DNA of 64,000 nucleotides from Terricaulis sp. Lineage in GTDB: Bacteria; Pseudomonadota; Alphaproteobacteria; Caulobacterales; Aquidulcibacteraceae. The DNA is taken from NCBI GenBank assembly GCA_024707365.1, contig JANPZV010000008.1, forward strand, positions 248,001 through 312,000, given 5' to 3'. The position numbers and the translations under genes were made by a program. This document shows positions 6,561 to 36,172 of this stretch, one piece after another. Positions within the stretch are counted from its first letter, which is position 1; every line of letters starts with the position of its first letter. Under the pieces are notes generated by a model, which was not told the DNA's origin, did no database searches, and was given only the letters and a program-made list of their open reading frames with translations.

Positions 6561-7341
6561 TTAGTGCCCAGGATGAAGTGCGTCGTTGAGGTAAATGCAG
6601 GTCAGGATCGCAAACACGTAGGCTTGCAGAAACGCGACCAGGAATTCGAGGCCATAGAGCGCCACCGTCATCGCCAGCGGCAGCGCCGAGCCCACAAGCC
6701 CAAGGAACCCGAGGCCCGCGAGCGCCGGCACAAAGCCCGCGAACACTTTGAGCAGGATGTGCCCGGCCAGCACGTTCGCCCAAAGACGAACCGCATGGCT
6801 GAGCGGACGGCTGAAGAACGAAATCACCTCGATGATGATCACGAACCACAGAATATAAAGCGGCACGCCCGAGGGCGCGAAAATCTTGAAGAACTTCAGC
6901 CCGTTCTTGGCGAAGCCCACGATGATGACGGTGAAGAATACCAAAAGCGCCAGCGCCGCGGTGACGACGATCTGGGTGGTGGGCGTGAAGATGTGATGCA
7001 CGCCGAAGAAGCCGGGGAACATGCCCAGCATGTTCGACATGAAGATGAACAGAAACAGCGTGAACACGAACGGCAGGAACTTGCGCACGCCTTCTTCGCC
7101 AGCGCCGTCCTTGAGCATGCCTTTGACAAAATCGTGCGCGCCCTCGGCCACGACCTGCGCGCGGTTCGGGATCAGCGCCGCGGGCTTCATCGCCCAATTG
7201 AAAAACCACGCCGCCAGGCCAACGCCGGCCACCATCGCCAGGCTGGCGTTTGTGAAGCTGGCGTCCCAAGCGCCGGAGGCTGAACTCGAGCGCCGGGTGG
7301 ATCGGGTGGATCTCGAACTGGTGGATTGGATTGTCAGCCAC
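6561..7341 (-). CDS. atpB: F0F1 ATP synthase subunit a, frameshifted
   Basis: Stator subunit that forms the proton half-channels with the c ring. The essential arginine is in PLSHAVRLWANVLAGH, with later helices LVAFLQAYVFAILTCIYLND. The N-terminus is VADNPIHQFEIHPIHPALEFS, from a GTG at 7341 with AGAGGA upstream. It then shifts frame to GAWDASFTNASLAMV. Removing one C at about 7274 restores LEFSLGAWDASFTN, the expected family text, so the assembly has one extra C. Restored length is about 260 residues. The start overlaps neither neighbour and lies seven bases after atpI. Confidence 0.93.
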
Positions 7342-10122: not shown

Positions 10123-11397
10123 TCAGCCCAGCGCGCGCCAGCCTATATCGCTGCGGCAGAAGCCGCCCGGCCAGTCGATCCGCTCCACCGCCGCATAGGC
10201 GCGCGCGATCGCCGCTTTGAGATCGTCGCCGATAGCCGTAACGGAGAGCACGCGCCCGCCATCGGCGCGCAGGGTGCCATCCTCGTCCTCGCGCGTGCCG
10301 GCATGGAACACGACCACGTCCGCCAGCGCGTTCGCCTCCGGCACGCCGCGAATGATCGAGCCTTTCAGCGGCTCATCGGGATAGCCTTGCGCGGCGTACA
10401 CCACCGTCACCGCCGGCTTTGCGTCCCATTCCAGCGGCGCCGCGCTTGCCAGCTCGCCCTTCGCCGCGGCCAGCAGCACGGGCGCGAAATCGCTGGCGAG
10501 GCGCCGCATCAGCACCTGGCATTCAGGATCGCCAAAGCGCACGTTGAACTCGATCAGCTTCGGCCCCGCGGGCGTGATCATCAGCCCGGCGAACAGCACG
10601 CCCACGAAGGGCCGCCCCTCGGCCTTCATGCCGGCCAGCGTCGGCAGGATGATCTCGTCCATCGTCTGATCGCGCACCTTGTCGGTGAAAACCGGCGCGG
10701 GTGAATAGGCGCCCATGCCGCCGGTGTTGGGGCCTTTATCGCCGTCATAGGCGCGCTTGTGATCTTGCGCGGCGATCAGCGGGATCGCGGTTTCGCCGTC
10801 GCAGATGGCGAAGAAGCTGGCCTCTTCGCCCGGCAGGAAATCCTCGATGACGATGCGTTGGCCCGCCGTGCCGAACTTGCGCAGGAACAGCACTTCATCG
10901 ATCGCCTTATCCGCTTGCGCGCGCGTTTCGGCGATGATGACGCCTTTGCCCGCCGCCAGCCCATCGGCCTTGATCACGAACGGCGGCTCGCGGTTCGCGA
11001 GATAGGCTTTGGCGCGGATCGCATCGTCGAACACTTTGTAATCGGCGGTGGGCACGCCATGGCGCTGGCAGAAATCCTTCATGAAGGCCTTGGAGCCTTC
11101 CAATTCCGCCGCCGCCTTGCTTGGCCCGAAGCAGGGAATGCCAAGGGTTTTCAGCGCATCGGCCAGCCCCGCCACCGCCGCCGCCTCCGGGCCGATCACC
11201 ACCAGCCCCGCCTGCTCGCGCGCGGCCAGCGCCGCCAGCTCGCGCGCGTCATCGGCCTTGATCGCCACGCAGCGGCCAAGCGCGGCCAGCCCCGGATTGC
11301 CCGGCGCGGCGATGATTTCAGAAACCAGCGGGCTCTGCTTGAGCTTCCAGCCCAACGCATGCTCACGCCCGCCCGAACCGACGATCAGAATCTTCAT
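10123..11397 (-). CDS. purD: Phosphoribosylamine-glycine ligase
   Basis: Second enzyme of purine synthesis: ATP-dependent joining of glycine to phosphoribosylamine. At 424 residues it is full length. N-domain MKILIVGSGGREHALGW, ATP-grasp residues in FVIKADGLAAGKGV, PNTGGMGAYSPAP and the metal site IEFNVRFGDPECQ are all present. It is cytoplasmic. The start ATG at 11397 coincides with the family N-terminus. Confidence 0.97.
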   Translation of the reverse strand: MKILIVGSGGREHALGWKLKQSPLVSEIIAAPGNPGLAALGRCVAIKADDARELAALAAREQAGLVVIGPEAAAVAGLADALKTLGIPCFGPSKAAAELEGSKAFMKDFCQRHGVPTADYKVFDDAIRAKAYLANREPPFVIKADGLAAGKGVIIAETRAQADKAIDEVLFLRKFGTAGQRIVIEDFLPGEEASFFAICDGETAIPLIAAQDHKRAYDGDKGPNTGGMGAYSPAPVFTDKVRDQTMDEIILPTLAGMKAEGRPFVGVLFAGLMITPAGPKLIEFNVRFGDPECQVLMRRLASDFAPVLLAAAKGELASAAPLEWDAKPAVTVVYAAQGYPDEPLKGSIIRGVPEANALADVVVFHAGTREDEDGTLRADGGRVLSVTAIGDDLKAAIARAYAAVERIDWPGGFCRSDIGWRALG

Positions 11398-11430
11398 GGC
11401 GCTTTGTTTATGGCGGCCCGCTGCGGCGCG

Positions 11431-11985
11431 CTAGAACTTCCGCACCCAGGCGGCGAAGGCGTCGAGATAGCGCGCGAGGTACTTCTTTGTCGCCTCGTCG
11501 GTCAGCGCGCCGGCCTCGTCGAATTTCTCGTGCGCGCGGAAGACCAGCAGTTCGGGCTGGGGCATGCAGAATGAATTGGTGAATTCAAACGCTTGCCGCA
11601 ATTGGCTTTGCCCGCGCGCCGAGCCGGTTTGCCCCGGCGATGCGCCGATAATGCCCACCGGCTTGCCGCCTAAGGGCGCGCCGCGCGCGGGGCGGGAGGC
11701 CCAATCCACCGCGTTCTTGGTCACGGCGGGCACGCCGTGATTGTATTCCGGGGTCACAAACAGCACCCCGTCCGCGCCGGCGATCGCCGCTTTCAGCGCC
11801 GCCACGGCGGGCGGATCGCCGGCGGCTTCCACGTCGCCATTATAGAGCGGCACATCGTTCAGATCGAAGCTCTCGATCGTCACCCCCTCGGGCGCGAGGT
11901 TGGCGGCGGCGCGCAGCAGGGCGCGGTTGAGCGAGGCTTGGCGCAGGCTGCCGGCGAGGCCGAGGATGCGGAGGGGGCTGGTCAT
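11431..11985 (-). CDS. NADPH-dependent FMN reductase
   Basis: Flavodoxin-fold NAD(P)H:FMN/quinone oxidoreductase of about 184 residues. The FMN phosphate loop is GSLRQASLNRALLR, the FMN ring motif TPEYNHGVPAVTKNAVDWAS, and GKPVGIIGASPG follows. Such enzymes reduce FMN, quinones or chromate; the true substrate is unknown. ATG 11985 (MTSPLRILGLAGSLR) is preferred because the extra twelve upstream codons lie outside the family. It is 33 bases upstream of purD on the same strand. Confidence 0.9.
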   Translation of the reverse strand: MTSPLRILGLAGSLRQASLNRALLRAAANLAPEGVTIESFDLNDVPLYNGDVEAAGDPPAVAALKAAIAGADGVLFVTPEYNHGVPAVTKNAVDWASRPARGAPLGGKPVGIIGASPGQTGSARGQSQLRQAFEFTNSFCMPQPELLVFRAHEKFDEAGALTDEATKKYLARYLDAFAAWVRKF

Positions 11986-12123
11986 GCCCGCAAAATAGGG
12001 GCTCACGCCGCCGCCCCGCAACGCGCGCGGCCCAATTCAGGGCGCCTCAAAATGAGGCAGGGGCGGCCGCCGCGCACGTTTTCGCTGTTCGCCTTGCCGA
12101 TTCAATGCGCTAGCCTCCCGTCG

Positions 12124-13530
12124 ATGTTCGATGAGATGCGGACGAAGGAGGGCGGGGTCCGCGCGCCCTATGAGCAGATCGCCGCTTGGCTTACCGCCAC
12201 GGGCGAGAAAACGCTGCAGCGCCGCCAGGTTGAGGCCGAAGCGCTGTTTCGGCGGTTGGGGATTACCTTCGCCGTCTATGGCGAAGGCGGCGATCCTGAG
12301 CGGCTGATCCCGTTCGATCTGGTGCCGCGCGTGTTTGGCGCCTCTGAATGGCGCAAGCTCTCGCGCGGGGTGAAGCAGCGCGCCCGTGCGCTCAACGCCT
12401 TCCTCTATGACGTCTACCATCGCGGCGAGATCCTGAAGGCCGGCATCGTGCCCGAGGCGCTGGTCTACCAGAACGAGGCGTTCCTGCCGGAGATGGTCGG
12501 CTTTGATCCGCCGGGCCGCGTCTATAGCCACATCGTCGGCGTTGACGTGGTGCGCACCAATCCGAACGAATTTCAGGTGCTGGAGGATAATTGCCGCACG
12601 CCTTCGGGCGTTTCCTACATGTTGGAGAACCGCGAAATCATGATGCGGATGTTTCCGCAGCTGTTCGCAAGTGTCGGCGTCGAGCCGATCGATGAATATC
12701 CCTCCCAGCTCAAGCGCACGCTGCAGGAGGTGGCGCCCCCGCTCTGCCGCGGCGAGCCCACCATTGTGCTGCTGACGCCCGGCCCGCTCAACAGCGCCTA
12801 TTATGAGCACTCCTTCCTCGCCGATCTCATGGGCGTGGAATTGGTTGAGCCGTCCGATCTTTTCGTCGAAGGCGGCAAGTGCTGGATGCGCACCACCCAA
12901 GGCCCGCAGCGCGTGGACGTGATCTACCGCCGCATCGATGACGCTTATCTCGATCCGCTCGCCTTCCGTCCCGATAGCTTGCTTGGCGTGCCGGGCTTGT
13001 TTGGCGCCTATCGCGCCGGCGCTGTCACGCTGTGCTCGGCGCCTGGCGCGGGCATCGCCGATGATAAGGCCATCTACGTGTTCACGCCCGAGATGATCCG
13101 CTTCTATCTGGGCGAAGAGCCGATCCTTAAAAACGTCGAAACCTGGCGCTGCGCCATTGAAGGCGAGCGCGATCATGTGCTCGCCAATCTCAAGGATTTG
13201 GTGGTCAAGCAGGTGCACGGTTCGGGCGGCTACGGCATGCTGATCGGCCCGCACGCGGCCAAGAAGGAGATCGAGGCTTTCCGCAAGAAGATCATCGCCG
13301 AGCCGGAAAACTACATCGCCCAGCCCACGCTTGAGCTCTCCTCCGCGCCCACGCTTTGCGGCGATGCGCTGGAGAACCGCCATGTCGATTTCCGCCCGTT
13401 TTGTCTCGTGGGCAAGGAGGTGCGCTTAACGCCTGGCGGGCTCACGCGCGTGGCGCTGACCAAGGGTTCGCTGGTGGTGAACTCAAGCCAGGGCGGGGGC
13501 GTGAAGGATACGTGGGTGCTTTCCGAATGA
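12124..13530 (+). CDS. Circularly permuted ATP-grasp protein (DUF404/DUF407), Anbu-cluster ligase
   Basis: A 468-residue member of the circularly permuted ATP-grasp type 2 family, proposed to form peptide or amide bonds. Recognisable blocks: FDLVPRVFGASEWRKLSRGV, LEDNCRTPSGVSYMLENRE, LLTPGPLNSAYYEHSFLADLMG (given in two parts: LLTPGPLNSAYY, EHSFLADLMG), VVKQVHGSGGYGM and NSSQGGGVKDTWV. The ATG at 12124 (MFDEMRTKEGG) fits. It leads a set of four same-strand genes with alpha-E, transglutaminase and Anbu peptidase, the gene set known to travel with Anbu. The product made is unknown. Confidence 0.92.
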   Translation: MFDEMRTKEGGVRAPYEQIAAWLTATGEKTLQRRQVEAEALFRRLGITFAVYGEGGDPERLIPFDLVPRVFGASEWRKLSRGVKQRARALNAFLYDVYHRGEILKAGIVPEALVYQNEAFLPEMVGFDPPGRVYSHIVGVDVVRTNPNEFQVLEDNCRTPSGVSYMLENREIMMRMFPQLFASVGVEPIDEYPSQLKRTLQEVAPPLCRGEPTIVLLTPGPLNSAYYEHSFLADLMGVELVEPSDLFVEGGKCWMRTTQGPQRVDVIYRRIDDAYLDPLAFRPDSLLGVPGLFGAYRAGAVTLCSAPGAGIADDKAIYVFTPEMIRFYLGEEPILKNVETWRCAIEGERDHVLANLKDLVVKQVHGSGGYGMLIGPHAAKKEIEAFRKKIIAEPENYIAQPTLELSSAPTLCGDALENRHVDFRPFCLVGKEVRLTPGGLTRVALTKGSLVVNSSQGGGVKDTWVLSE

Positions 13531-13548
13531 GGATGCGCCGCGCACCAT

Positions 13549-13654
13549 CACCCATCCCCGGATTGGCCGCAGGCCAAGTCCGGGGCCCATACCCGCAAAC
13601 GTTTGCGTTTATAGGCCCCGGGCTCGCCGCTGCGCGTCGCCCCGGGGATGGGTG
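13549..13654. repeat. Dispersed palindromic element, family B (copy 1)
   Basis: A unit bounded by CACCCATCCCCGG and CCGGGGATGGGTG. It contains GGCCGCAGGCC, CCCGCAAACG/TTTGCGTTTATAGG and a GC hairpin. Almost the same unit lies at 36069-36172. Here it separates the ATP-grasp gene from the alpha-E gene. Confidence 0.8.
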
Positions 13655-13681
13655 TTTGTGTGCGAAGCATCGGTGTTCGCC

Positions 13682-14608
13682 ATGCTGAGCCGCACCGCGC
13701 AAAACCTCTATTGGATGGGCCGCTATATCGAGCGGGCCGACGCCACCGCGCGCCTCATCGAAATGGGCCGGCGCATGACGATGCTGCCTTCGGCCAACGC
13801 CGAATGGCGCTCGGTTGCGCGCGCCTCCGGCAGCGCCAAGGCGTTGGCCGATGATCCCAAGGCCTCGGATCGGGCGATCATCATTCGGCTTTTGCTTGAT
13901 GCGGAAAATCCATCCTCGATCCGCTGCTGCATCGCCCAGGCGCGCGCCAACGCCAAGGCGATCCGCACCGCGCTGACGTCGGACATGTGGGAGGCGCTCA
14001 ACGATTCCTGGCGCCTGCTCGAAACGCTGGACGCGGATGAAGCGGTGTCTGAGCTGCCGATCTGGCTCGATTGGGCCAAACAGCGCGCCGCCGCGTTCCG
14101 CGGCGCGGTTGAAACCTCATTGCTGCGCAATGACGGCTTCATCTTCCTAAAGCTCGGCGAATTGCTGGAGCGCGCGGAGATGACGCTGCGCCTGCTCGAC
14201 GTGAAATACTATGTGCTGCTGCCGGAAACCGATGTCGTCGGCGGCGGGCGCGATTTCCATCAATGGACCTCGGTGCTGCGCGCCACCGGCGCCTTGCGCG
14301 CCTATCATCATGTCAATCGCGGCGATTACACGCCCTGGAGCATCGCCGAGTTTCTGGTGCTGAACCCGATGTTTCCGCGCTCGGCCGCGTATTGCTTCAC
14401 GCAGATTGATCGGCGCCTCAATGAGCTTGCTCTGCTCTATGACGGGCAGCGCTTTGCGTGCCACGACATCGCGGCGAACATGGTGGGCCGGCTGGAGGCG
14501 TGCGATATTCAGGTGCTGTTCCAATCGGGCTTGCACGAATTCATCGGTGACTCGATCCAGATCACCAATCGGCTCTCGAGCGCGATTTCAAACGCGTACC
14601 ATTTCTGA
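13682..14608 (+). CDS. Alpha-E domain protein (DUF403)
   Basis: Helical protein of 308 residues with the alpha-E (DUF403) signature MLSRTAQNLYWMGRYIERAD at its start, which fixes the ATG at 13682 rather than 13652. Later blocks FIFLKLGELLERAEMTLRLLD and LNPMFPRSAAYCF are also characteristic. The biochemical role is unknown; the family is nearly always beside the ATP-grasp and transglutaminase genes, as here. The transglutaminase gene begins three bases after its stop. Confidence 0.93.
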   Translation: MLSRTAQNLYWMGRYIERADATARLIEMGRRMTMLPSANAEWRSVARASGSAKALADDPKASDRAIIIRLLLDAENPSSIRCCIAQARANAKAIRTALTSDMWEALNDSWRLLETLDADEAVSELPIWLDWAKQRAAAFRGAVETSLLRNDGFIFLKLGELLERAEMTLRLLDVKYYVLLPETDVVGGGRDFHQWTSVLRATGALRAYHHVNRGDYTPWSIAEFLVLNPMFPRSAAYCFTQIDRRLNELALLYDGQRFACHDIAANMVGRLEACDIQVLFQSGLHEFIGDSIQITNRLSSAISNAYHF

Positions 14609-14611
14609 TCC

Positions 14612-15407
14612 ATGCGCCTCGCTGTCCGCCACCTCACGCGTTATGCGTACGATCCGCCCGCAGCGCGCGCCGCGTTGCGGCTCAAGCTTTTTCCGCCGCG
14701 CTTTTTCCTCCCAAGCCGTGCGCGAATGGCGCGTGGCCGTGAATGGCGAAGCGGTTGAGCCCAATTTCGTCAACGGCTTGGGCGAGGGCGAAGCGATCTG
14801 GACCAGCCTTCTGCCGCAAAGCGCGATCGAGATCGTGGCCGAGGGCGTGGTGGAGGCCTCCGATTCATCGGGCGTCGTGCGCGGCCTTGCCGACGCCACG
14901 CGCCCGGCGATGTTTTTGCAGCCCACCGCGCTGACAGAAGCCAATGACGCCATCGTTGCGCTGGCGAAAAAGGCCAAAAGGCCGGATGCGCTCACCACCA
15001 TGCACCGGCTCTCGAACGCCGTGCGCGATGCGGTGGATTACACGCAAGCGGCCACCCATCACGCCACCACGGCCGCCGAGGCGCTGGCCCAGGGGGCGGG
15101 CGTTTGCCAGGATCACGCGCATATTTTCATCGCCGGCGCGCGCGCCATCGGCGTGCCGGCCCGCTACGTCACCGGCTACCTTGCGCCGGGTTTTGAGGGC
15201 GATCACGAAACCCATGCATGGGCGGAAGCCTATGTCCCTGATTTGGGCTGGGTCGGGTTTGATCCATCCAATCGCCAATGCCCGACGGATGCGTATATTC
15301 GCCTCTGCGCCGGATTCGATGCGGCGGACGCCGCCCCCGTGCGCGGCGCCGTCAGCCTCGGTGCGGGGGAAGAGTTGAACGTAGCGGTTGAGGTCGCGCA
15401 GCAATGA
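14612..15407 (+). CDS. Transglutaminase-like cysteine protein, frameshifted
   Basis: Papain-fold transglutaminase/protease homologue of about 264 residues with the bacterial N-terminal extension (MRLAVRHLTRYAYDPPA). The catalytic triad is Cys at about residue 165 (GAGVCQDHAHIF), His in GDHETHAWAEAYV and Asp in LGWVGFDPSN. The first 30 codons (from ATG 14612) and the rest are in different frames. The T run at 14702-14706 has one T too many; removing it gives LFPPRFSSQAVREWRV, the family text. The gene is coupled to the peptidase gene by an ATGA overlap at 15404. Confidence 0.92.
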
Positions 15408-16144
15408 CGTATTGCCTGGCGGTGAAGGTGAACGAGGGGCTCGTTCTCTTATCCGACACCCGCACCAATGCGGGGCTCGATGATATTTCGCGCTTCCGCA
15501 AGATGTTTATCTGGGAGCAGCCGGGCGAGCGTTCGGTGGTGCTGCTCACCGCCGGCAATCTGGGCGTGACCCAGGGCGTCATCACCCGCATTGAAGCGGC
15601 GGTGGATGCGGCCTCGCGCGGCGAGGAGGTGGAATCCATCCTCACCTGTTCAACGCTCTATCGCGCCGCCGAATTGGTGGGCGAAGCGATGAACGCCATG
15701 CAGGCGCGCGATCGCGCCCGCATTGAAGCCTCGGGCGCGGCCGCTGACGCCACCATCATCCTCGCCGGCCAGCGCAATGGCGGGGAGATGCGGCTTTTCC
15801 TCATCTACACCGCCGGCAATTTCATCGAAGCCACCGAGGACACCTCCTTCTTCCAGATCGGCGAGCATAAATACGGAAAGCCGATCCTCGATCGCGTCAT
15901 CAACCCTGAGACGCCGCTATCGGATGCGCTTAAGGCGGCGATGATCTCGATGGATTCCACGCTGCGCTCGAATTTGAGCGTCGGCATGCCGCTCGACCTC
16001 GCGGTGGTGCATGCCGAGCAATATGGCGTGGTGCAATCGCGCCGGTTTGAGAGCGATGATCCGGTGTTTCGCCAAATCAGCGAAGCCTGGTCGCGCGAAT
16101 TGCGCGCGGCGTTCCACGCGCTGCCCGAGGTGCCGCTGCGCTAG
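15404..16144 (+). CDS. Proteasome-type peptidase of the Anbu family
   Basis: Ancestral beta-subunit (Anbu) peptidase, 246 residues, related to HslV and proteasome beta subunits. After loss of Met1 the N-terminal threonine (MTYCLAVKV) would be the nucleophile. Asp17 (LLSDTRTNAG) and Lys32 (RFRKMF), counted from Thr1, match the proteasome catalytic set. LTAGNLGVTQGV is the expected glycine-containing strand. Known Anbu proteins assemble into open helical or ring-like oligomers without an assigned unfoldase; the substrate is unknown. The ATG overlaps the transglutaminase stop, which argues for co-translation and a shared task. Confidence 0.94.
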   Translation: MTYCLAVKVNEGLVLLSDTRTNAGLDDISRFRKMFIWEQPGERSVVLLTAGNLGVTQGVITRIEAAVDAASRGEEVESILTCSTLYRAAELVGEAMNAMQARDRARIEASGAAADATIILAGQRNGGEMRLFLIYTAGNFIEATEDTSFFQIGEHKYGKPILDRVINPETPLSDALKAAMISMDSTLRSNLSVGMPLDLAVVHAEQYGVVQSRRFESDDPVFRQISEAWSRELRAAFHALPEVPLR

Positions 16145-16185
16145 CGCCGCTTGTTTCGGCTTCGCAGGTGCAGTAGCGCACGCTC

Positions 16186-17386
16186 ATGCTTTTCGTTATC
16201 GACCTTCTCTGCTTTCTGGTCGTCCCCGTATTCATGTGGTGGGCGATCCGCGGCGCTGTGCCGATGGCGGTTTTGCCGATCCTCACCGGCCTCAGCGTCG
16301 CCATCGCCGCCGATCGGCTCGGCTTCGATAAATCCGCGCTTGGGCCGTCGGAATGGGGCGAAACGCTCGGCTGGCTCGGCGTGCTGGCGCTGGCGTTCAG
16401 CGCCGGGCTTGAAACGCGCGTCACCAGCGAAGGCCCCAAAATGGGCGGGCAGGTGGTGTTCGCCGCGCTTGTGGCGTTGGCGCTGCCGTTCGCGGTGGGG
16501 TTTGGAATTGCGGCTTCGGGCGTGATGGATGCGGTGCTGTTGCGGCCCGAGGGCGTCAGCCCGCTTTTATCTGCTGGCGCAATCGGGCTTTGCCTGGCTG
16601 TGAGTGCGCTGCCGGTGCTTGTCGGCATCGTGCGTGAATTGCCTCTGGCTGATCGCCCGCTCGGCAATCTCGCGCTGCGCATCGCCGCGCTTGACGATGC
16701 GATCCTTTGGATTGGCCTTGCCGCGCTGCTGTTTTTGCACAGCGGCGATGGCGGGGCGGTGCTTGCCGGCGATTGGGCCAAGCTTGGCTCGTTCGCCATC
16801 TTCGCGCTCATGATCCTGGCGCGAGGGCGCATTGATCGCTTCATCCCCGATCATATCGCCATCACCATCGCGCTGGGGCTTGGCTATCTGTTCGCTGGCG
16901 CGTGGGCGTCCGATGCGCTGGGGCTGCATGAATTGCTCGGCGCGTATTTCGCCGGCGCGCTGGCGCCGAAAGTGTTGGCCGCGCGCTTGAAGCCCGAATT
17001 GCTCGGCAAAATCGCGCTGTTTGGCTTATCGCCGCTGTTCTTCGCCCATCGCGGCCTTAGCATTGATGGCGCGGTGATCACCGCCGCCGCGCTTGGCGTC
17101 ACGTTGGCGCTGCTTGTGCTGGCGTGCGGCGCCAAGCTCGCCGCCGTGCACATCGCCCCGCCCGATCGCGCCATGCCCGCGGCTGAGCGCACGCGGCTTG
17201 GGCTTTTGCTTCAATGCAAGGGCCTGATGGAAATCGTCGCGGCCACCATTCTGGTGCAGGCGGGCCTCATCACGCCCACCGTGTTCGCGGTGCTTGTCAC
17301 GCTGGCGCTGGTCTCCACCACGCTCACCGTGCCGCTCTTTCTCCTCGCCGCGCGCGCTGGCGCGCAGGGCCGAGGCGAAGGCTTAG
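16186..17386 (+). CDS. Cation:proton antiporter (CPA2/Kef-like)
   Basis: Integral membrane antiporter of about 400 residues with twelve or so hydrophobic segments from LLCFLVVPVFMWWAIRG to VFAVLVTLALVSTTLTVPLFL. LGVLALAFSAGLET and ELLGAYFAGALAPK resemble sodium/proton exchanger helices. As written, the frame lacks a stop and runs antisense through the next gene to 19344. A TAG at 17384-17386, overlapping the opposite gene's TAA, lies one frame away. The likely true end is there, with a single-base error shortly upstream (about 17350-17380). It starts 41 bases after the Anbu gene. Confidence 0.82.
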
Positions 17387-19365
17387 CTCTCCTTCGGCTT
17401 CAGCGCGCCGGAGAAGGTCAGCACTGCGAGCGCGGCGAGGATCGCGCCCAGCAGCGCGTAAAGCGCATGCGCCCAGCGCCACAGCGCAACGCCCTCAAAC
17501 AAGCGCCAATCGCTCTCGCCCAGCGCCATGCCGGCCGGCAGATCAGCGCGCGCGGCGCGCCCCGGCGCGCAGCGGCTTTCCTGGCCCAGATCGATAAACG
17601 GCAGCGCCACATCGAGCGCGTAAAGCGCCGGCTCCACCGCGCCATTGCAGGCGCGCCCCTCGGGCGTCACCAGCGCGCCTTGCGCGTTCATGCTCAAAAC
17701 GCCGGCAACGCCCAGCGCCACAAACAGCACCAGCGCCCGCAGCACCCGCACAGGCGCCAGCCCATAGCCGGCGATCAGCCCGTAAAGCGAAGAGAACACC
17801 CAGGCGATCGGCCCCGGCGCGCCTTGGCGCGTGCGCAGATCATGCTGCGCCAAGAGGATGCGCCGCCCATCCTCGCGCCGCCCCGCGCGCGCATAGACAT
17901 GCGCCAGATGCGTGTAGGGCTGCGGCGAAAACGCTTTGGCTTGCGTGCGCTTCAGCCACGCCAGCCGCTTGCGCCAAGGCGCATCGCTTTCCAGCCGCGC
18001 ATAATCGAAGCCTTCCAAATCAAGCGCCGAGCCATTGCGCCCCAGCCGGCCTCCACATCATCATTCAGCGCGCCCGCGCGCGCGCCGGAGGCATCGATAC
18101 GCGCATCGGGCTGGGCTTCAATCGCGCGGGCATCGATCGCGCCGCGCACGCTTGCGTCCGCGAAGGTGAACAGCGCGCCTTGCACGCCGTCAGGCGATGG
18201 CCCGCGCAGCGCCAGGTTTTCCCAACCGAGCCCGCCGCCAATCTCCGCGCCCTCAAGGCTGAGCCCTCCCTCAATCACGGTTTTGCGCCCGTGCGGGGTG
18301 GGGCCGTCGAGCTTGAAGCTCACATCCCCGCCGGTGTGCAGCTTGGCCGCGCGGATCGCCCATTGGCCTGGATGGATAAAGCGCCCGCCGCCAAAGCCCG
18401 CATCGCCATCCACGCGCGCGCCCGTAAGGTTCACCGGCCCCTTTCACAATCGCGCCCTGAAGCAAAAGCGAGCCGCGAATGCGCGCATTGCCCGCATCGA
18501 TCCCATCGCCGCCGGCAATCTCCGCTTCCAGCAGATTGAGGTTCTTGCCGATCTGCGCGCCGCGCAAATTCACGCGGCCTTCGCGCAGCTTGAAGCTGGC
18601 GCGCGCGGAAAAATCCCCGCCCACCTCGATCTTCTGCGCCGAAAGCGCGTGGCGGCGCTTATCGCCATTATGCGCGCCAAGCTCGCCCATCAGATAGACG
18701 CTGCCGCCGATCCGGCTTTGGCTGAGGCGCACCGAGCCCCTGGCGTAGAACTGCACATCCTTGCCGCCCTTATCGAGATAAAGGTTGCCGCTGATGCGCG
18801 CGCCTTCGAGATCGAGCGGGGTGAACGCGCGCACGCCCTCGGGCGCGCTTGCGCCCATCACCAGCCGCGCGCCGCGCCCGCTGCAATCGCCGGCGATTGC
18901 AGCGTTGCGGAAGCAGAGCCACGCCTCCGCCGCATCGCCTTCGGCGAAAGGCTTTACGCCCGCGAAGGAGAGCGGCCCGTCGATCACCACGCCGCGCCCG
19001 TTCACTTGGGCGAGCCGCGAATGGCTGAGCGACAGCCGCGCAAAGCGCGCATTGGCGATATGGATCAGGCTCTCGATCTCGCAGCCCTCCAGCGCCAGCG
19101 CCGGCAGCCCGGCGCCGCCCGCGCCGGCGCAATCGGAGAGATCAAGCTGGCCCTCGATGCGGGCGCCCTTGATGCGCACGCCTGTGAGCTGCACCGGCCA
19201 GCCTTCATTGACGCCCATCAGCAGCATGCGCAAAAACCCCGCGCGCACCGTGCGCTGGGAGCCGTCGCCGCCCGTCAATGTGGAAAAATCCGCCACCGCG
19301 CCCTCGCGCGTGCGCTGGATAACGAAATGCTCGCTATCCCTTAGGTCGTTCGCGTCGAACGCCAT
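17383..19365 (-). CDS. Membrane-anchored protein with beta-helix-like repeats, two frameshifts
   Basis: About 660 residues once two shifts are repaired. The first two thirds is a chain of about 20-25-residue units of the form L-x-G-A-x-I-x-G-x-L-x-L (LTGVRIKGARIEGQLDL, LEGARISGNLYLDKG, LSQSRIGGSVYLMG, LRGAQIGKNLNLL, NARIRGSLLLQG, LEGAEIGGGLGW), which should fold as a right-handed beta helix. The last third has a basic linker and two membrane helices (VLRALVLFVALGVAGVLSM, YALLGAILAALAVLTF). Frames change at about 18440 (one extra C in CCCC) and about 18046 (one base missing). No family name is certain; a pentapeptide-repeat or bactofilin-like role is only a guess. Confidence 0.75.
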
Positions 19366-19442
19366 GCAATCCCCCGGCCGCCCCCCAGCCGCCGCCGGTC
19401 TGATCTAACCATCCCAGGGCGCCCGCGCGCGAGTCGGCTTAT

Positions 19443-20885
19443 ATGAAAGAGATGTCAGACACGGCCCCCAGCAATCCCGGCGCGAACCTGCCCGAGCTCT
19501 CGGTTTCCGAGCTTGCCCAGGCGGTAAAGCGCACGATGGAAACAACTTTTGACCGCGTGCGGGTGCGCGGCGAACTGGGCCGCGTGCTGATCGCCAAGTC
19601 CGGCCATCTTTATGTGGATTTGAAGGATGAGAACGCCACGATTTCCACAGTGATGTGGAAGGGCAACGTGGCCGCCCTCGCATTCAAGCCGGAAGAGGGC
19701 CTGGAGGTGGTGGCCGAAGGCCGGCTCTCCACCTATCCGGGCCGCTCGCAATATCAATTGATCGCAGAGCGCATGGCCCCCGCGGGCGTGGGCGCGCTGC
19801 TGGCTCAGCTTGAGAAGCTGAAAAAGAAGCTCGCCGCAGAGGGCCTGTTTGGGGCCGAGCGGAAGAAGGCGATCCCGTTTCTGCCGCGCACCATCGGCGT
19901 CGTCACCTCGCCAACCGGGGCTGTGATCCGCGATATCCTGCATCGCCTGGGTGAGCGCTTTCCCTGCCGGGTTTTGCTGTGGCCGGTGCTGGTGCAAGGC
20001 CAGGAAGCGGCCGGGCAAGTGGCGCGCGCGATCGAGGGCTTCAACAAGCTGCAAGGCGATCTTCGGCCTGACGTTTTGATCGTCGCGCGCGGGGGCGGCT
20101 CGATTGAGGATCTGTGGGCCTTCAACGAAGAGATCGTGGTGCGCGCCGCCGCCGCCAGCGCCATCCCGCTGATCTCCGCGGTCGGCCACGAAACCGATAC
20201 AACGCTGATTGATTTCGCGTCGGACCTGCGCGCGCCCACGCCCACGGGCGCGGCGGAAAAAGCCGTGCCGGTGCGCGCTGAGCTGATCCAACGCATCACC
20301 ACCATCGACGGGCGTTTGAAAAACAGCCTGATCCGCGGCCTCGATAAGCGCCGCACCGAATTGCGCGCAGCGTCCGGCCGCTTGCCGCGCCTGGAAACGC
20401 TTTTCCAAATCCCGCAGCAGCGGTTTGACCGCGCCAGCGAAAAGCTCGCCTCGGCGCTGCTTTCCAACACCCGCGCCGCGCAATCCAAGCTCGATCGCAT
20501 CGCCGCGCGCCTGCGCCCCGAGGCGCTGGGGCAAGACGTGGCGCGCCGCCGCGAGAAACTGGCGCTCAGTTCCGCGCGCATCGCCCCCGCCATGGCGCGC
20601 AATCTGCTCAATCACCGCAAGCATCTCGAAGCGTCCGCCCGCATGCTCGAAAGCCTTTCGCACAAAAGCGTGCTCGCGCGCGGCTTTGTGATGGTGCAGC
20701 GCGAGGATGGAACGCTGGTGCGCGCCGCGAAAGATCTGTCGCGCGGCGATGCGGTGGAGCTTACGTTTGCGGACGCAAGCCAGCGCGCCGTCATCGATCC
20801 CGCCGAAACGCCCCCGCCGCCCAGCGCCGAACCTGCCAAACCCAAACCGAAACCCAAGCCCGCAGGCCAGGGCGATTTGTTCTAG
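19443..20885 (+). CDS. xseA: Exodeoxyribonuclease VII large subunit
   Basis: Large subunit of ExoVII, which degrades single-stranded DNA in both directions; 480 residues. The N-terminal OB fold (LSVSELAQAVKRTMETTFD, VRVRGELGRV) is followed by the catalytic core with IGVVTSPTGAVIRDI, VARGGGSIEDLWAFNEE, ISAVGHETDTTLIDFASDLR and APTPTGAAE. A long helical region and a Pro/Lys-rich tail follow. The start ATG 19443 gives the expected N-terminus. The small subunit gene is not in the window. Confidence 0.96.
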   Translation: MKEMSDTAPSNPGANLPELSVSELAQAVKRTMETTFDRVRVRGELGRVLIAKSGHLYVDLKDENATISTVMWKGNVAALAFKPEEGLEVVAEGRLSTYPGRSQYQLIAERMAPAGVGALLAQLEKLKKKLAAEGLFGAERKKAIPFLPRTIGVVTSPTGAVIRDILHRLGERFPCRVLLWPVLVQGQEAAGQVARAIEGFNKLQGDLRPDVLIVARGGGSIEDLWAFNEEIVVRAAAASAIPLISAVGHETDTTLIDFASDLRAPTPTGAAEKAVPVRAELIQRITTIDGRLKNSLIRGLDKRRTELRAASGRLPRLETLFQIPQQRFDRASEKLASALLSNTRAAQSKLDRIAARLRPEALGQDVARRREKLALSSARIAPAMARNLLNHRKHLEASARMLESLSHKSVLARGFVMVQREDGTLVRAAKDLSRGDAVELTFADASQRAVIDPAETPPPPSAEPAKPKPKPKPAGQGDLF

Positions 20886-36062: not shown

Positions 36063-36068
36063 GGCTCT

Positions 36069-36172
36069 CACCCATCCCCGGATTGCGCGAAGCGCAAGTC
36101 CGGGGCCTATCACCTCCAACGCTTGCGTTCATAGGCTCCGGCTCGCGCTGCGCTGCGCCCCGGAGATGGGTG
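36069..36172. repeat. Dispersed palindromic element, family B (copy 2)
   Basis: CACCCATCCCCGGATTG ... AAGTCCGGGGCC ... CAACGCTTGCGTTCATAGG ... CCCCGGAGATGGGTG. The boundaries and internal order are those of the copy at 13549-13654. It fills the gap between two convergent genes, so it may also work as a terminator. Confidence 0.8.

Follow-up and report, generated by a model that had tools for sequence, protein, structure and literature searches.

The operon in which an ATP-grasp enzyme, an alpha-E protein, a transglutaminase (TG) and the proteasome-like peptidase Anbu are encoded together was described by Valas and Bourne in 2008 and by Iyer et al. in 2009, as related in PMC5666114 and PMC6376114. 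The available text of these two papers already contains the four-gene arrangement, the catalytic residues and the hypotheses that the operon handles a peptide tag, credited to Iyer et al. 2009, or acts in a deubiquitinase-like manner. Here we analyze a member of this operon at positions 12124-16144 of a 64,000-nucleotide stretch of Terricaulis sp. DNA (contig JANPZV010000008.1, positions 248,001 to 312,000), hereafter the window, from an assembly of 3.4 Mb in 8 contigs that is 89.7% complete and whose nearest named relatives include Hyphomonadaceae MAGs. What we add to the published picture is that TG and Anbu are separable in nature and that the TG usually carries a terminal glutamine.

As far as the accessible parts of the papers go, Anbu displayed no peptidase activity with the substrates that were tested, while the Yersinia ATP-grasp liberates phosphate from ATP (PMC6376114). 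The levels of the trio of ATP-grasp, alpha-E and TG were reduced in an ntrC mutant of Burkholderia (PMC5491218), Anbu was up in P. putida under nitrogen limitation (PMC5666114), and in marine metagenomes the domains of the trio track urea metabolism (PMC3597751).

Four further systems invite comparison. The putative glutathionylspermidine synthase of PDB entry 3n6x, whose name is its depositor's prediction, is related to the ATP-grasp of the window over its full length (E 1.1e-185, 466 residues). In pupylation, with its components Pup, Dop, PafA and the proteasome, a C-terminal glutamine is processed before ligation, and a ligase and a proteasome-type protease take part. The likeness to the operon drawn here is one of components; the pupylation ligase has another fold than the ATP-grasp of the window, and in the operon the glutamine belongs to an enzyme instead of a small free tag. 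In Burkholderia cenocepacia H111 (I35_5080-5083, under NtrC) the three families are clustered as in the window, but the available text of PMC5491218 names no Anbu there and a large TG-domain protein adjoins. The rlo operon of Pseudomonas aeruginosa likewise encodes an ATP-grasp and a protease together with a TG fold, but its TG, RloB, is inactive and fused to seven membrane helices, its protease is a retropepsin that is secreted, and neither alpha-E nor Anbu is mentioned in the accessible portion of PMC12239564.

Results

The four genes lie on the plus strand in the order ATP-grasp, alpha-E, TG and Anbu, with gaps of 3 bases between alpha-E and TG and of -4 bases between TG and Anbu, the TG stop overlapping the Anbu start. 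A first-pass annotation, made from the DNA letters alone, had reported the common direction and these spacings and had recognized an operon known from genome surveys, and in all of this it was right. The window shares with the published operon its four genes, their order and strand, the catalytic residues of Anbu and the matches to solved Anbu structures. It differs in a TG that is out of frame as sequenced, in a palindromic repeat after the ATP-grasp gene and in having sister species that lack TG or Anbu.

The ATP-grasp gene (12124..13530, plus strand) encodes a circularly permuted ATP-grasp ligase of type 2, with both PF14403 (544 bits, E 2.2e-163) and PF04174 (492 bits) over their cut-offs, and is the single gene of this type detected in the genome. 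The alpha-E gene (13682..14608, plus strand), also detected once, exceeds the PF04168 cut-off (285 bits, E 8.6e-85) and holds the conserved ER motif, E17 and R18 being invariant in 53/53 aligned sequences with the window's included. Its AlphaFold model is predicted to be all-helical (mean pLDDT 91.8), and the search of this fold against the PDB returned no match at E <= 0.001, on which ground we rejected any assignment of alpha-E function from fold.

Anbu (15404..16144, plus strand) is a proteasome-like Ntn-hydrolase that falls just below the Pfam Proteasome cut-off (21 bits against 22.4), yet matches five distinct solved sequences, 5loy (E 6.2e-81), 5nyj (E 7.7e-72), 5nyf, 5nyw and 5lox, with a best E of 6e-81. 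Three of the five were named Anbu by their depositors and two just 'Peptidase'; one of these two, 5lox, is called Anbu in PMC8665760. The Thr1/Asp17/Lys32 set noted in the first-pass annotation is present and invariant in the 16/16 aligned sequences, the window's among them (alignment numbering 2/18/33). The S1 pocket of Anbu-1 of P. aeruginosa is given as T20, F30, T48, L52 and S55 (PMC5666114); that of the window, read by eye, is T20, F30, T48, L52 and T55, identical at 4/5 positions with a serine to threonine change at 55, and it agrees with the Anbu-1 subtype.

The genus offers natural versions of the operon in which one component is missing. Among 25 genomes, the window's own included, alpha-E, TG and Anbu occur together in 5, alpha-E with Anbu but no TG in 7, and alpha-E with TG but no Anbu in 2, while all three are missing from 11. 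As either TG or Anbu is retained without the other, each is dispensable; the ATP-grasp adjoins alpha-E in 14/14 of the alpha-E genomes, to which that search was confined. Among the five full sets the TG of the window is broken, the N-domain detected in its genome belonging to another copy on contig C3, and the Anbu of G002 is split over two contig ends. The seven TG-less genomes lack the Bact_transglu_N domain genome-wide, their Anbu begins 17-23 bases after alpha-E, and the Anbu Thr/Asp/Lys residues are retained in 6/7 of them, the six that were aligned; no TG core was detected in G020 (E <= 0.001), and in G009 nothing beyond a weak match within a frame of 692 codons. The seven TG-less genomes are 87-100% complete, the two without Anbu 92-99% and the empty 11 79-99%, so some of the absences among the latter may be gaps. 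The ATP-grasp proteins of the seven TG-less clusters (L030, L031, L032, L036, L037, L038 and L043) carry a C-terminal extension, often glycine-rich, past the KDTWVL end at which other ATP-grasp proteins stop.

The same separation is seen across the phylum. In a sample of 299 genomes, 121 have Anbu (searched at E <= 1e-20), 172 have alpha-E (E <= 1e-10) and 169 have the TG N-domain (E <= 1e-4). The three occur together in 113 genomes, alpha-E with TG in 53, alpha-E with Anbu in 6, Anbu alone in 2, TG alone in 3, and none in 122. Thus 119/121 Anbu genomes have alpha-E, while 53/172 alpha-E genomes are without Anbu, all 53 with the TG N-domain, and 6/172 are without the TG N-domain, all 6 with Anbu.

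Among the named loci, which are the best 80 of at least 590 confirmed stretches, L111, L124, L130, L148 and L160 have ATP-grasp, alpha-E and Anbu with no TG between, L091 has a TG domain on the opposite strand only, and L101, L110, L139, L140, L141, L143 and L149 have Anbu alone within the stretch examined. Both alpha-E and the TG N-domain are encoded somewhere in 11 of these 13 genomes, and neither is found in G337 and G338 (L101 and L110). In other stretches, L161, L166, L174 and L176 among them, Anbu stands without any of the trio. In three distant members of the phylum (L167, L186, L187) Anbu lies on the strand opposite to a TG-less pair of ATP-grasp and alpha-E. On pSymB of the laboratory strain S. 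meliloti 1021 (L221) we observed ATP-grasp, alpha-E and a TG with a glutamine-rich tail; Anbu was not found in the surrounding 9.7 kb.

In a tree built from 107 ATP-grasp proteins, with the label of L135 corrected and L091 left out for its doubtful label, the state with Anbu and without TG requires 6 changes, at least 3 of them forced by well-supported branches. The seven TG-less genomes of the genus form a separate branch. The Anbu-less genomes G018 and G023 form one 7-row clade with the type of the window. Since Anbu is present in the nearest relatives outside it, L081 and L083, these two are most simply explained by loss of Anbu.

The TG itself ends in glutamine in 67/86 non-redundant sequences, compared with 7/410 control open reading frames (ORFs) of the same loci. 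Glutamine is also found at position -2 in 57/86 and at position -4 in 41/86. The 86 TGs were chosen by HMM score, closed frame, start motif and a similarity filter; in a looser set that includes long frames 88/119 end in glutamine. The discovery set of 19 TGs lies partly within the 86, and of a further 65 TGs collected later 58 have at least two glutamines in the last eight residues, as do 6/6 plasmid TGs, three of which end in glutamine. The tail past the conserved glutamate measures 10 to 35 residues, and at all lengths glutamine is mostly last (10/13, 38/43, 11/17 and 8/13 by rising length class); when a relative with a short tail is modelled, the tail forms the final part of the last strand, and the best fold match is 3isr. 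Of the labelled families in the phylum sample 11 are represented, and 10 of these contain a glutamine-ending TG, the exception being f38. The end is absent in TGs such as L075, L079, L080, L213 and L217, and in family f62 it is found in 2/6 and missing in 4/6.

We rejected three simple accounts of this end. General composition does not explain it, given the rare glutamine ends of the controls, a glutamine content of 3.3% in the TG body against 21% in the tail, and the few such ends among the operon partners (ATP-grasp 0/130, alpha-E 11/138, Anbu 5/138). A tie to Anbu is contradicted by Anbu-less trios, in 9/18 of which the TG also ends in glutamine (L131, where Anbu adjoins, was excluded), and a by-product of the overlapping Anbu start by the lack of gene overlap in 63/65 TGs. 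A literature search that covered the available text of PMC10318531, PMC6376114 and PMC5666114, with subscription papers mostly outside its reach, found no description of such a tail.

The TG of the window keeps this tail but not its frame. The N-terminal piece (14612..14698, plus strand), a PF08379 fragment of 21.3 bits (cut-off 27), is out of frame with the C-terminal catalytic piece (14712..15407, plus strand; PF01841, 83 bits, E 2.3e-23), which ends in VEVAQQ. The frame from 14612 begins MRLAVRHLTRYAY... as in relatives, yet terminates after 48 codons, and the stop at 15407 belongs to a different frame. In the close relatives L027, L028, L029 and L044 the N-domain and the core share one frame, which is what a bacterial small transglutaminase would show and the window does not; the window has 13 bases where 4/4 close relatives have 12, and comparison with a fifth relative narrows the break to ~14688-14704, adjoining T runs. 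Calling the cluster complete, as the first-pass annotation did, was therefore incorrect for the sequence as assembled. The full Cys/His/Asp triad that it ascribed to the TG is present in the C-terminal piece and invariant in 46/46 relatives, but an intact frame was not confirmed, and its view that TG and Anbu are both probably active finds no support for the TG of this assembly and meets, for Anbu, the published lack of peptidase activity with the substrates tested. As the triad is present, the TG is not of the inactive rlo type accompanied by a secreted retropepsin, and the model of the intact TG of G024, compact and similar to 3isr over its 264 residues, leaves no room for seven membrane helices. 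Two further TG-core genes are encoded in the genome, and the one that bears an N-domain (contig C3) has no glutamine tail.

The break more likely stems from base-count errors of the assembly, as the repeat-rich gene downstream (17383-19365, minus strand) is likewise broken twice, lying in three frames, and is intact in L045 (9935-12031) as a single 699-codon frame. A comparison of 8388 bases of the window with the ORFs of relatives showed, besides the TG break, a single further frame change, at 7275-7286. Across this second site an ORF of L029 matches the window in two frames, perhaps another frame break.

Between ATP-grasp and alpha-E the window has 151 bases, compared with 4 bases in 6/6 relatives, a gap on which the first-pass annotation was silent. 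Within it lies a long dispersed palindromic repeat (13548..13654, no strand assigned) with a second copy at 36068-36172, and the junction is free of the repeat in 6/6 relatives. The RNA of 13531-13681 is predicted to fold strongly, at -98 kcal/mol (z -8.2), and a scan of 11000-20000 against Rfam gave nothing over gathering score. With this repeat between the first two genes, the single-transcript status of the operon is uncertain in this copy.

The two genes beyond Anbu, a cation antiporter and the repeat-rich gene, had been left open as possible members. The antiporter was matched in 0/19 of the relatives' loci (E 1e-5), three of which (L038, L039, L044) stop less than 1 kb past Anbu and carry little information on that side; we rejected it as a part of the system, outside which it very likely lies on this comparison of loci. 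Its frame (16186-19344, plus strand) has no stop at the end of the PF00999 match (~17335) and continues antisense to the next gene until 19344, perhaps through another frame break. The repeat-rich gene was matched in 1/19 loci (L045, of genome G002), where another gene stands between the match and Anbu, and we do not count it either; to judge from its matches it may be a shared neighbour in the closest kin at most. The intervening gene of L045 (12032-13046) has, by its motif read by eye, the look of a retropepsin-like protease with a signal peptide.

Discussion

We propose that ATP-grasp and alpha-E constitute an amide-forming core, that TG and Anbu are separate processors, that the system serves nitrogen use under limitation and that the TG glutamine is a functional end, a reading to which, taken whole, we give a probability of about 0.42. 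The core would be an ATP-driven ligase making an amide on a carboxylate. Its product would then be processed at the amide by two separate enzymes, the papain-fold thiol enzyme TG and the Ntn-hydrolase Anbu, either of which could be lost while the other remains. We take the pair as the core and the other two as separate processors because a chain needs both, whereas nature keeps either one with the pair. By analogy with the published responses to nitrogen, nitrogen use under limitation is the most likely service of the system.

Several observations weigh against this proposal. In Yersinia, according to the accessible text of PMC6376114, Anbu showed neither specific binding to its operon partners nor activity, and the ATP-grasp was not stimulated by Anbu, glutamine or glutamate. 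Five of the seven TG-less genomes of the genus have other TG-core proteins, in which no N-domain was detected, and in one of the seven, G008, Anbu lies in two pieces in different frames; outside the genus, the genomes of the TG-less named clusters carry the TG N-domain elsewhere. Anbu without alpha-E, as in G132, G267, G337 and G338, argues that Anbu does not strictly depend on the core. No alpha-E genome of the phylum sample lacks both TG and Anbu (0/172), but ~2 are expected under independence; as this count alone is not significant and the genomes are related, we dropped the rule that every alpha-E genome has one or the other. It is by inference that we make the core a ligase with a product shared by the other enzymes, place TG and Anbu after it and in parallel, and give the glutamine a part.

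The first-pass annotation suggested the making, attachment and removal of a peptide tag, an interpretation that was not new, as Iyer et al. 2009 had put forward this hypothesis. In such a linear cycle the ATP-grasp would make the tag, TG would attach it to proteins, and Anbu would either take it off or degrade the protein that bears it. The conserved gene order and tight spacing, the presence of two amide-forming folds beside a peptidase fold, the co-occurrence of alpha-E, the TG N-domain and Anbu in 113/299 genomes and the TG terminal glutamine all suit such a cycle. Nevertheless, an obligatory chain of making, attaching and removing fits poorly with the TG-less sets that keep Anbu (7/25 in the genus) and the Anbu-less sets that keep TG (2/25 in the genus, 53/299 in the phylum sample), and no conjugate or activity is reported in the available parts of PMC6376114 and PMC5666114; on these gene contents we consider it unlikely. 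A somewhat better case, though still a doubtful one, can be made for Anbu as an ATP-independent degradative protease for nitrogen scavenging, with the other three genes in the same regulon but in a different pathway, close to the view in PMC5666114. Inhibitor binding and the ring architecture described in that paper's accessible text agree with it, as do the four genomes with Anbu but no alpha-E and the stretches in which Anbu stands apart from the trio; what it leaves unexplained is alpha-E in 119/121 Anbu genomes, far above expectation for unrelated pathways, and the overlap of the TG stop with the Anbu start in the window.

Alternatively, the cluster may be decaying, the TG being a real pseudogene, the repeat splitting the operon and the whole representing a step to the TG-less state of sister species. 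The frame break, the repeat insertion and the absence of TG or Anbu from other genomes of the genus would follow from it, but the twice-broken nearby gene that is one frame in L045 and the T runs beside the TG break point to base-count errors of the assembly, the ATP-grasp, alpha-E and Anbu genes are intact, and the seven TG-less genomes occupy a separate branch of the tree, all of which makes decay quite improbable to us.

The terminal glutamine is probably a functional end, whether as a substrate of the ligase, as the TG's own substrate or as a binding tag. It suggests that the end of the TG itself is handled by the system, and a weaker form of the tag idea thereby gains some ground. A more specific version, which is speculative and which we hold to be rather unlikely, is that the TG is, besides a tagging enzyme, a tag carrier with its own substrate, having a selected C-terminal glutamine and a preceding tail that is free in length and sequence. 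Glutathionylspermidine synthase joins an amine to glutathione, and in a comparable way the pair of ATP-grasp and alpha-E would attach an amine or an amino acid at the glutamine end of the TG; alternatively, the TG's own cysteine would use the terminal glutamine for self-linkage. Anbu, where present, would trim the end of the TG.

For Anbu, closely related to the proteasome, a genus with full, TG-less, Anbu-less and empty versions of the operon offers a ready-made comparison. If the TG break of the window is real, the strain is a natural TG mutant. The conserved terminal glutamine of the TG provides a concrete candidate for the operon's chemistry and a direct route to testing the function of the system.

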